Part shown: positions 2,742-25,197 of the stretch, piece by piece
Layout: each line of letters starts with the position of its first letter
Position numbering within the stretch: position 1 is the stretch's first letter
From: Prosthecobacter debontii
GTDB lineage: Bacteria; Verrucomicrobiota; Verrucomicrobiia; Verrucomicrobiales; Verrucomicrobiaceae
DNA: 64,000 nt
NCBI GenBank assembly: GCA_945869675.1
Contig: CAMBPS010000004.1
Location: 1-64,000 of the forward strand
Direction: 5' to 3'
Notes under the pieces: generated by a model
What the model was told of the DNA's origin: nothing
What the model saw: the letters and a program-made list of their open reading frames with translations, nothing else
Database searches by the model: none
Program-made: the position numbers and the translations under genes

Positions 2742-3683
2742 TCACACGCCGATGGCCTTACCCGCCCAGGCGATAACAAGCGGTGTAGTGATGATGCTAA
2801 CGAGTGTCGTGGCAATCACACACTGCACTGCGGTTGAGGCGTGGCCACCATAATGGCGGGCGATCATGATGCTAAAAACGGCACTCGGCATGGCTCCTTG
2901 AACGATCAGGATGCGCTTTAACTCGACGGTCAGAGGCAGATACCAAGCCGCTGCAAAAAAAGCAATCGGGATCAGAGCCAGCCTTAGCAGCGGCGCTAGA
3001 ATGGCGATGGACCATTTCATGCGTTCTTGGCCCCAAATATCAGCGATGGAAGCGCCGATGATCAGCACTGAAAGAGGCACCGCGCAGGCACCCAGCATGG
3101 CAAAGGTGTTGTGCATGACCTTAGGAATATAACCATGCAGACCTGTGAAATTCAGCAGCAAAGAAAAGAGGATCGTCAGCACGGGCGGATTCAGCGCCAG
3201 CTTCCAAGGAGCTTGACTGAGACCGGTCAACAGGCCGACTCCGACTGTCCAGCAGGCAAGCTCGACACCGAGGGTAAAGGTGAACAGAACGCCTAGAGTG
3301 CCATTGTCAGGAAAGAGGGCTGTGACGATGGGGATGGCTACAAAACCATAATTTTGTAAGCCACAAGATACGGCAAAGCTACGTCTGCCAGCATGTTTGC
3401 GCAGGCCGATCAGCGGCGCGGCAAAGTAGGAAAAGGTGATGCCCAGCGCTACCAATGCAAAGCCTAAACCGGCTGCAATCAGCACTGGCAGCGGATGCAT
3501 GACCGTTTCGTTACCGACGACACGCTCAATGATCAGGCAGGGCGTCAGAAGCAGCACGCAGAGACGCATCACACCGGCATCCACCTCTGTGGGTAGCAGG
3601 CCCGTTTTCCGCACAGTAAAGCCCGCCGCCATCGTGAGATACACGGGCAGAACAACGCTAAGAATACTGGCAAAGTCGAGCAT
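2742..3683 (-). CDS. AEC family transporter (auxin efflux carrier-like permease)
   Basis: The 313-residue protein is very hydrophobic, with about ten transmembrane segments starting at residue 5 and ending near 310. Features of the AEC/BART superfamily include the GLQNYGFVAIPIV segment near residues 107-119, the SVLIIGASIADIW segment near 205-217 and the PSAVFSIMIARHYGG motif near 266-280. Bacterial members export small organic anions such as malate or malonate; the solute here is not predictable. It lies 74 bases downstream of the last gene of the manganese uptake operon on the same strand, without an obvious terminator between, so read-through is possible. Confidence 0.85.
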   Translation of the reverse strand: MLDFASILSVVLPVYLTMAAGFTVRKTGLLPTEVDAGVMRLCVLLLTPCLIIERVVGNETVMHPLPVLIAAGLGFALVALGITFSYFAAPLIGLRKHAGRRSFAVSCGLQNYGFVAIPIVTALFPDNGTLGVLFTFTLGVELACWTVGVGLLTGLSQAPWKLALNPPVLTILFSLLLNFTGLHGYIPKVMHNTFAMLGACAVPLSVLIIGASIADIWGQERMKWSIAILAPLLRLALIPIAFFAAAWYLPLTVELKRILIVQGAMPSAVFSIMIARHYGGHASTAVQCVIATTLVSIITTPLVIAWAGKAIGV

Positions 3684-3757
3684 AGGAATGGCCTACGGTG
3701 GCGCGTTCAATGAGTCAGGCAAGGATGGAACGCTGGAACATCCACTCCAATTATCAG

Positions 3758-4573
3758 CTAGACAGAGCGAGTTCGCCATTTGGAGGTGGCGAAGGCTAAT
3801 AGGAATAACAGTGTTTGAGCCAAGACGATGCAGGCACCGGTAGTGCCGTTGATGAAAAAACTAACGTAAACGCCCAGGCAACTCGCGAGCACCGAGGAGG
3901 CCGTGGCAATCATTAACATCCGATCAAAGCGGTCGGTCAGCAACCTGGCCGTGCAGCCTGGCGTGACAAGCATGGCCACGACCAGAAGGATGCCGACGGC
4001 CTGCATGGAGGCAACGATGGTCCCAGAAAGCAAAGACAGCAGCACATAGTGCATGAGCGTGGTGTTCAAACCGATGGCACGGGCATGAGCGGGATCAAAG
4101 CAGAAGAGCATCAGGTCTTTGCGCATGATCAAAACAACACTGAGGGTAATCACAGCAGCGATGATGGTTTGCAGAAGGTCAGCGCGCTCAATGCCGAGGA
4201 TGTTGCCAAAGAGGATGTGATTCAGGTGGGCATCTGTCTGGACTTTCGTGAAGAGAACGAGCCCAAAGGCAAACATGCCAGTAAAGACAATGCCCATCAC
4301 AGTGTCTTCTTTGATCCGTGTGCAGGCCTTGATCCAGCCAGTAGCCATAGCGCAGAACAATCCAGCGGCAAAGGCTCCAACGGCGAGCGGCAACCCGAGC
4401 ATGTAGGCGATGACAATGCCGGGGAGCACGGCATGTGAAATCGCATCACCCATCAGTGACCAACCTTTCAACACGAGGTAGCAGGAAAGCACCGCACACA
4501 CACTGCCGATCAGCACACTAATCAGGAGTGCTTCGACCATGAAGGGGTATTGCAATGGGGTCAGCCAATTCAT
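3758..4573 (-). CDS. mntD: Manganese ABC transporter permease (second subunit)
   Basis: This is an ABC-3 family (ZnuB/MntC-type) inner-membrane permease of 271 residues with about eight membrane segments. I placed the start at the ATG at 4573, which overlaps the stop of the preceding permease as ATGA; a longer frame exists upstream but is only out-of-frame sequence of that neighbour. The first residues, MNWLTPLQYPFMVEALLIS, match the family N-terminus, followed by LKGWSLMGDAISHAVLPGI (family hallmark) and a late LLVVAMLVTPGCTARLLTDRF segment. It is a paralogue of the adjacent upstream gene, and the two would form a heterodimeric channel energised by the ATPase at 5598-6512. Confidence 0.9.
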   Translation of the reverse strand: MNWLTPLQYPFMVEALLISVLIGSVCAVLSCYLVLKGWSLMGDAISHAVLPGIVIAYMLGLPLAVGAFAAGLFCAMATGWIKACTRIKEDTVMGIVFTGMFAFGLVLFTKVQTDAHLNHILFGNILGIERADLLQTIIAAVITLSVVLIMRKDLMLFCFDPAHARAIGLNTTLMHYVLLSLLSGTIVASMQAVGILLVVAMLVTPGCTARLLTDRFDRMLMIATASSVLASCLGVYVSFFINGTTGACIVLAQTLLFLLAFATSKWRTRSV

Positions 4574-23914: not shown

Positions 23915-23947
23915 TGAGGAATCTAAACTGGCAGTTTAGATTCCTCA
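23915..23947. repeat. Palindromic repeat, copy downstream of DUF4143 ATPase
   Basis: The arm TGAGGAATCTAAACT (23915-23929) is perfectly complementary to 23933-23947 with a GGC loop. The same palindrome occurs just upstream of the ATPase gene (25159-25197). This copy starts 31 bases past the ATPase stop codon and could also act as a transcription terminator, though no T tract is clear. Confidence 0.9.
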
Positions 23948-23978
23948 TAATCAATAGGGGCAGTTGATGTGAGCTTAG

Positions 23979-25160
23979 CTAGACCTCAAACCTTGTAGCG
24001 ATCTCTTTCCAGGAGATCACTTGTACATCCTCGGCGATAGCTTTGGAAGCAACCGTAGCACGCGCTGGACGGTGAACGAGTGTCGATGTCACAGCGCGTT
24101 TTTCTCCGAAGTGCGACTTCCAGGCCTTGCTGAGCTTACGCATGGGAATCACCATTTCCGGCTTGGCCGTTTTGGATGCTTTGGCTTTGAGAAGATGCAT
24201 TGCGCCATTTTTACCAGGCACCACAAAATCCACCTCCAATCCTTGCTGATCACGGAAGTAATAAAGCTCACGGCGAAGGCCCGAGTTTACCTGTGCTTTG
24301 ATGATTTCCGAAGCCACAAGGCCCTCGAAGAGCGCACCGAGAAAGGGTGATTTTTCAAGCTCCGCCTCTGTGTCGATACCCAGCAAGTGACAGGCTAGCC
24401 CTGGGTCCGAAATATAGATGCGTGGTGCCCGGATGATACGCTTGCCCATGTTTTCAAAGAAGGGCTGAATAATGAATATCTGTGCGGTGGTTTCCAAAAT
24501 ATCCAGCCACTTGCCAATGCCAGGCACACTCATCCCGAGCGGACCTGCGAGATCGGTCTTGTTTAAAATCTGGCCGTGACGCGTGGAGAGCAGCGAAAGA
24601 AATCGACGAAAGACGCCGAGATCCTGCACCGCAGAAATGGCGCGCACATCACGTTCCAAATAAGTTTGGAGGTAAGAACTGTACCAGAGGCGCGCGGCTT
24701 TAGGGCGCGCGAGGACTTCGGGATAGCCGCCACTGAGGATGGAGACTTTCGGCGCTTCACTGACACTGAGCGGCAGTAACTGAAGCACAGCGGCACGGCC
24801 AGCCATGGACTCTGTGACATTACGCATCAAGCCTGCTTCCTGTGATCCGGTGAGAAACCAAAGTCCTGTCTTCCGAGGCTGCGCGTCGATACGAGTCCTC
24901 ACATAGTTGAAGACTTCGGGTAGATTCTGAATCTCGTCAAAGATCACGGGCGGTTTCACACCATCTAAAAAGCCCTGCGGGTCCTGACGGAACCGAGAGA
25001 TGATGTCTGGATCTTCAAAAAGATAGTACTCAGCCTTTGGGAAAAGGTGCCTGAGTAAGAACGTCTTCCCTGAACGACGTGGCCCTGTGATCACGACCGC
25101 CGGAAAGTTTTTGGCCGCCGTGAGGATGTGTTTTTTGATGTTTCGGTCGATGGTCCGCAT
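23979..25160 (-). CDS. AAA-type ATPase with DUF4143 domain, bracketed by palindromes
   Basis: A 393-residue protein of the widespread AAA_14/DUF4143 family. Walker A is GPRRSGKT (26-33) and Walker B is VIFDEIQN (72-79), followed by WFLTGSQEAGL (sensor-like, near 101-111). DUF4143 covers about 195-360 with LQTYLERDVRAISAVQDLGVF and GKWLDILETTAQIFIIQPFF. The C-terminal EVDFVVPG...LLKAK segment resembles a restriction-nuclease-like core, but the usual Glu of ExK is replaced. Members are found in many copies per genome and have no settled role. The start codon overlaps the last two bases of one palindrome and a second copy follows the stop, so gene plus palindromes form a discrete unit of about 1.28 kb. 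Confidence 0.92.
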   Translation of the reverse strand: MRTIDRNIKKHILTAAKNFPAVVITGPRRSGKTFLLRHLFPKAEYYLFEDPDIISRFRQDPQGFLDGVKPPVIFDEIQNLPEVFNYVRTRIDAQPRKTGLWFLTGSQEAGLMRNVTESMAGRAAVLQLLPLSVSEAPKVSILSGGYPEVLARPKAARLWYSSYLQTYLERDVRAISAVQDLGVFRRFLSLLSTRHGQILNKTDLAGPLGMSVPGIGKWLDILETTAQIFIIQPFFENMGKRIIRAPRIYISDPGLACHLLGIDTEAELEKSPFLGALFEGLVASEIIKAQVNSGLRRELYYFRDQQGLEVDFVVPGKNGAMHLLKAKASKTAKPEMVIPMRKLSKAWKSHFGEKRAVTSTLVHRPARATVASKAIAEDVQVISWKEIATRFEV

Positions 25161-25197
25161 TTGAGGAATCTAAACTAGCAGTTTAGATTCCTCAAAT
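25159..25197. repeat. Palindromic repeat, copy at the start of DUF4143 ATPase
   Basis: An 18-bp perfect inverted repeat, ATTTGAGGAATCTAAACT (25159-25176) and its complement (25180-25197), flanks an AGC loop. It shares its inner 15-bp arms with the copy at 23915-23947. Its end overlaps the ATPase ATG (25158-25160), so in RNA it would place a hairpin directly at the start codon, and in DNA it could be an autoregulatory operator. Confidence 0.92.

Follow-up and report, generated by a model that had tools for sequence, protein, structure and literature searches.

The window, a 64,000-nt stretch of Prosthecobacter debontii DNA, contains on its minus strand a gene for a DUF4143 ATPase of 393 amino acids (23979..25160), recognised by Pfam and PADLOC matches, conserved residues, an AlphaFold2 model and fold matches. 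It is located between the genes for a TIM-barrel isomerase and a Gfo/Idh/MocA oxidoreductase, and a palindrome of nearly the same sequence marks each of its ends. The start-side copy (25159..25197), ATTTGAGGAATCTAAACTAGCAGTTTAGATTCCTCAAAT, measures 39 bp with 18-bp arms around a 3-bp centre and overlaps the ATG at positions 25160-25158 of the minus strand; the stop-side copy (23915..23947), TGAGGAATCTAAACTGGCAGTTTAGATTCCTCA, measures 33 bp and starts 31 bases past the stop codon. Judging from these sequences and from the motif in related genomes we propose the former as an operator and the latter, probably, as a second one. The sequence-only reading of this DNA had described the bracketed gene, the position and arm length of its palindromes and the two neighbouring genes, and all this agrees with what we find. 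It had also stated that DUF4143 ATPases occur in many copies per genome, which is true of some relatives (up to 19 genes) but not of the genome at hand, where the gene of the window is the only one.

The protein scores well above the thresholds for the Pfam families AAA_14 (PF13173; 84.9 bits with a cut-off of 27, E = 6e-24) and DUF4143 (PF13635; 138.7 bits with a cut-off of 28.1, E = 2e-40). A sequence search of the PDB returned no relative of it, and searches of NCBIfam and PHROGs no match. In the AlphaFold2 model (mean pLDDT 88) an AAA+ domain is followed by a winged helix at about residues 181-250 and a C-terminal domain. The AAA+ domain, placed by Pfam and conservation at residues 1-135 (24756..25160, minus strand), carries the Walker A sequence GPRRSGKT, the Walker B pair DE75-76 and R122. 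The winged-helix region (24411..24620, minus strand) is modelled with helices at residues 181-193, 201-208 and 212-224 and strands at 228-231 and 247-250. The best VIA-align matches of these two parts together are the archaeal AAA+ ATPases 2qen (Z 15.1) and 2fna (Z 14.2), with plant NLRs and CED-4 coming next. Modelled alone, the C-terminal domain resembles McrC (Z 9.8) and Can2/Cdn1 (Z 8.5-9.4, the best being 9.4 for Cdn1 and 9.3 for Can2), and fold matches and conservation define a PD-(D/E)XK nuclease-like domain at residues 262-335 (24156..24377, minus strand) with E309, D311, K327 and a lysine in place of E325. With its Walker A and Walker B motifs and the adjacent winged helix, the protein is predicted to be an AAA+/STAND-like ATPase joined to a PD-(D/E)XK nuclease-like domain.

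Residues G26, K32, D75, E76 and R122 are invariant, and across 212 family members the Walker and nuclease residues are nearly so. Position 325 is a glutamate in 78 of the 80 clade members and in 208 of the 212 family members, including a protein 98% identical to that of the window (L004), while codon 325 of the window gene (24186-24188) reads AAA, for lysine, so that the catalytic D ... ExK set is not complete. The window copy is possibly nuclease-dead, or its sequence in error at this codon; unless the latter applies, the nuclease is probably impaired since the catalytic glutamate is lost. PADLOC matches the protein to PDC-S01 (PDLC04790, E = 2.7e-91), and six further PDC-S01 models match as well. 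In the available passages of a 2026 survey (PMC12988326), PDC-S01 is an ATPase fused to a PD-(D/E)XK domain that is counted 29,494 times in bacteria and 9,986 times in archaea and ranks fourth among prokaryotic defences; experimental validation is said there to be pending for most PDCs, and a palindromic operator does not figure in these passages. By its match to these models the window gene is a candidate defence gene, although it differs from PDC-S01 by the changed nuclease motif (E325K) and has no evident defence island around it.

Motif and gene are paired exclusively. We assembled 80 related loci with 55-98% protein identity from many phyla; most of them are metagenome assemblies, so their organism labels and contexts may hold errors, and their start codons were set by rule. 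Directly 5′ of the start codon, 77 of the 80 have a 33-bp motif, TGAGNNNNNTAAASTNNNASTTTANNNNNCTCA, and none has the reversed-motif control. The remaining three comprise a locus cut at a contig end (L025), one with the motif inside an over-extended match (L034) and one without it (L073). A second copy is present near the gene in 23 of the 80, in 19 cases downstream (4-145 bp past the matched region) and in four cases not downstream of the gene but 67-77 bp upstream of the first palindrome (L053, L068, L071 and L083). As it is missing in most relatives, the second copy is not essential to the family. Within the genus, however, all seven carriers, one of which is a decayed remnant, possess exactly two bracketing copies at one mismatch or fewer, and at this threshold the motif is found in none of the 41 non-carriers; sites with three mismatches were about as frequent in the genus as in the control, with no excess over chance.

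The same pairing holds over wider distances. In 388 genomes of the phylum, a search allowing one mismatch yielded nine sites in seven genomes as against none for the reversed control, and those loci that were checked adjoin DUF4143 genes. At one of them, L118 (G431:C38, 1922-1954), the motif has one mismatch and lies ~300 bp before an AAA ATPase gene that resembles the DUF4143 class and belongs to another clade. The window's own 4.04-Mb assembly holds just two copies, both at the DUF4143 gene, and together with the nine phylum sites against a control of zero this places the pair far beyond chance. With up to two mismatches, 15 of 20 further genomes gave matches, every one of them at the gene of this clade, even though some of these genomes hold 13-19 other DUF4143 genes. 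The sequence-only reading had suggested following the palindrome through the genome and its relatives, and considered that its occurrence at many unrelated sites would speak against a link with the ATPase. The copies turned up at genes of this class; a scatter over unrelated sites was sought and did not appear.

The start-side palindrome overlaps what is putatively the gene's own promoter. On the minus strand it includes a -35-like hexamer, TTGAGG (25190..25195), which is separated by 17 bp from a -10-like hexamer, TAGATT (25167..25172), situated 6 nt before the ATG. In the relatives, the start-side copies have TTGAGT or TTGAGA at the first place in 61 of 77 cases and a TTGA-like sequence always, followed after 17 bp by a -10 hexamer that is most commonly TATATT, TATAAT, TAAAAT or TAGAAT, with the ATG ~6 nt further on. 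The promoter-like pattern of this clade can thus be written TTGAGT-N17-TATAWT, superimposed on the palindrome. Because the ATG is found ~6 nt after the -10 hexamer, where transcription would begin, the transcript is expected to be leaderless. Read in the direction of the gene, the start-side copies score 4.78 of 6 matches to TATAAT, as against 4.18 when read backwards and 4.0-4.1 for the second copies. It is the second copies, on the other hand, that are more symmetric, with 14.1 of 16 pairs formed as against 12.1 in the start-side copies. Such a contrast would be expected of a symmetric binding site that shares its place with a promoter in one copy and is relieved of this duty in the other. 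The two copies within one locus are also more alike than shuffled pairs (26.1 versus 23.8 of 30).

A palindrome at the start site appears to be a rule of the DUF4143 family, its sequence being specific to each clade. We sampled 210 DUF4143 genes, taken from bacterial genomes spread over many phyla, together with 473 uncurated open reading frames as controls, and found a palindrome scoring at least 10 and centred within 50 bp of the start in 33% of the former but only 3.6% of the latter; among the 129 DUF4143 genes outside the window's own clade the figure was 29%. Many DUF4143 genes have no clear palindrome by this score, which is conservative, as it passes just 40% of the own clade where the motif is nearly universal. 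The start-site palindromes of other clades differ from that of the window (e.g. CTTGCAAATTGGGATTAGTACTCCCAATTTGCAAG and TCCATGAAAATCCGCAATTGCATTGCGGATTTTCATGGA), and one is likewise found in members carried by plasmids of Moraxella, Wolbachia and Pseudomonas. Palindrome similarity tracks the protein and not the genome: its median is 0.76 between genomes for proteins of at least 60% identity and 0.47 between paralogues in one genome, with a shuffled null of 0.41. Five genomes (G088, G474, G467, G477 and G479; L151-L161, L211-L277) contain 13-19 DUF4143 genes each, and the clear palindromes among these are mostly unrelated to one another.

Which part of the protein the palindrome follows was addressed by relating its variable columns to the three domains. 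Within the own clade the standardised weights were 0.36 for the winged helix, 0.05 for the AAA domain and −0.05 for the nuclease domain, and within the other clades 0.31, 0.07 and 0.16, respectively. A sliding scan of partial correlations, in which the identity of the rest of the protein was held constant, peaked at residues 201-245 in the own clade (0.28), inside the modelled winged helix, and at residues 186-215 in the others (0.15); these correlations are modest in size and were computed without tree correction. When all clades were pooled, the nuclease domain obtained a larger weight (0.42) than the winged helix (0.18), which probably reflects the own clade forming a single block. Since the pooled data give this lead to the nuclease domain, the evidence for the winged helix is suggestive and not proof, but it is likely that this region reads the palindrome.

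From these comparisons we infer, and consider probable, that the ATPase binds its own palindromes via the winged helix, with the start-side copy serving as an operator over its own promoter and mediating autorepression; the sign of this regulation, looping of the DNA and a role in defence are inferred in the same way. The winged helix would recognise the palindrome, probably as a dimer or larger oligomer. As the start-side palindrome covers both the promoter and the start codon, the bound ATPase would block RNA polymerase and so keep a dangerous nuclease under negative autoregulation. The stop-side copy could strengthen repression, for example by looping across the 1.25-kb gene. A signal from an invader might then alter the ATP state of the protein, upon which the operator would be released, expression would rise and the nuclease would be set free. 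That the palindromes may be binding sites of the ATPase was among the suggestions of the sequence-only reading, and it gains support from a motif that is present only at the gene, specific to the clade, in step with the protein and linked to the winged helix.

Alternatively, the palindrome could be bound by a host regulator, or might merely be a strong sigma-70 promoter of symmetric sequence, the ATPase in both cases not being its reader. Indeed, the -35 and -10 hexamers are close to the bacterial consensus. However, the palindromes of paralogues within one genome are unrelated, whereas relatives from other phyla have theirs in common, and the motif is found at no other gene of these genomes. 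Furthermore, the second copies are even more symmetric although they are not promoters of the gene. We therefore consider this explanation unlikely.

A further suggestion was that the palindromes delimit a mobile element, whose transposase would then be the ATPase-nuclease. In related genomes (L027/L028, L029/L039 and L015/L018) palindrome and gene are indeed found in unrelated surroundings, and homology breaks off close to the stop codon on one side and close to the outer edge of the start-side palindrome on the other; presence of the gene is sporadic, empty sites exist, and the protein family is scattered across many phyla. Against this, all 21 genomes tested contain one copy per genome, and the locus is stable: in five of seven genus carriers the gene lies downstream of the same oxidoreductase gene, while L005 and L006/L012 share another locus. 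The empty sites between the isomerase and oxidoreductase genes, whose comparison the sequence-only reading had proposed, are provided by two close relatives (G023 and G037) with a 98% identical oxidoreductase. Here the flanking genes are 50 bp apart, without the ATPase gene or palindromes, and the junctions fall not at the palindromes but 17 bp and ~110 bp outside them, with no target-site duplication seen. The second palindrome is missing in most relatives and upstream of the first in four, and the promoter-like bias of the start-side copy would be unexpected for a mere element end. In another genome a remnant (L134; G009:C17:40014-40645) still has the same oxidoreductase and isomerase genes on either side; the ATPase gene has decayed while both palindromes are kept, the stop-side copy remaining a perfect palindrome with 18-bp arms, 24 bp before the isomerase start. 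Divergence of the gene among the genus carriers is similar to that of the adjoining oxidoreductase gene, and this, along with the location shared by five of the seven, indicates that within the genus the gene was mostly inherited and often lost. Over wider distances, its occurrence with the start-side palindrome in unrelated surroundings means that it has moved by horizontal transfer. Nothing we found ties this movement to the palindromes. We thus rejected the transposon, a very unlikely explanation given the relatives' loci, the palindrome-free empty sites, the copy number and the off-palindrome junctions.

The palindromes might also fold into RNA hairpins at the two ends of the mRNA, in its leader and its tail, and control its stability or translation, given that each has long inverted repeats and is transcribed, or nearly so. 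The start-side copy, however, carries the promoter-like hexamers, and a leaderless mRNA would exclude it. Roughly a fifth of the pairs in the start-side copies are broken, with G-T making up only 42 of the 246 breaks, as is expected for a double-stranded operator. That the palindrome tracks the winged helix likewise speaks against a hairpin. After the promoter and mismatch analysis we do not favour this explanation, which appears highly improbable. Of the autoregulatory hairpins considered in the sequence-only reading, autoregulation is retained, in accordance with a palindrome lying over promoter-like sequence and the start codon, while the RNA hairpin gives way to a double-stranded operator.

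It is equally improbable that the sites are not mainly operators but docking places, at which the ATPase would recognise its own locus, keep its nuclease inactive on DNA, or process the sites when DNA is in an unusual state, as in cruciforms, replication or recombination. Two sites do bracket the gene in part of the clade, the second away from the promoter, and the nuclease domain resembles McrC and CRISPR-linked nucleases, but most relatives have the promoter copy only. A dispersed regulon was rejected since 21 genomes contain no other motif sites at up to two mismatches, and a phage target site since the exact motif and any close relative of the ATPase are absent from 2.9 million viral contigs; phage and plasmid records contain relatives of the ATPase only below 60% identity.

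An operator read by the ATPase itself can be compared with several known systems. The AAA+ and winged-helix fold is shared with STAND/archaeal AAA+ ATPases (SSO1545, PAB2304), NLRs and MalT-type switches. STAND-type switches carry a sensor repeat, in place of which the window protein has its C-terminal nuclease-like domain, and its proposed target is its own gene only. IniR, an ATPase regulator of related type, binds a promoter (PMC5760070). In McrBC, too, an AAA+ ATPase works with a PD-(D/E)XK nuclease, and it is McrC whose fold the C-terminal domain matches best; the window system differs in being a single polypeptide with a putative sequence-specific winged helix and no known methylation dependence. 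Cdc6/Orc1 initiators likewise combine AAA+ with a winged helix (2qby is among the Foldseek matches) and bind repeated sites, the origin recognition boxes, often near their own gene. The sites described here differ in lying at a promoter in single or double copy, with no hint of an origin. Controller (C) proteins of restriction-modification systems and antitoxin autorepressors bind a palindromic operator over the promoter of their own gene; they belong to horizontally spread defence genes, sometimes with leaderless mRNA. In those systems a separate small protein reads the DNA, whereas here the effector itself appears to be the reader.

In the open-access journal literature covered, we found no report on DUF4143 genes together with palindromes. 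A cognate DNA site for each clade would offer biochemistry a binding target and a reporter for the trigger, as well as a means of sorting those paralogues that share a genome without cross-talk. How such genes might function in distant hosts would also be simply explained if a near-consensus promoter, a leaderless start and a self-supplied regulator travel together. A more far-reaching conjecture, doubtful as it stands, regards DUF4143/PDC-S01 ATPases as a large class of NLR-like defence switches made of a single gene each, where the sensor ATPase, the nuclease and the reading of the protein's own clade-specific palindrome would be united in one polypeptide. The operator would then be part of immunity: as long as paired palindromes are bound, the nuclease would stay silent, docked at its own gene, and undocking would both derepress the gene and release the nuclease.

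Two further loci deserve mention. On the Emticicia plasmid pEMTOL02, a DUF4143 gene (L300, 1995-3161) lies between arabinose genes in opposite orientation to both, and splits a metabolic pair as does the gene in the window. In L007, an open frame just past the stop-side palindrome (3563-3913), which starts MKILLDENLDWRLGRDL, looks by eye like a PIN-like toxin of the DUF5615 type.
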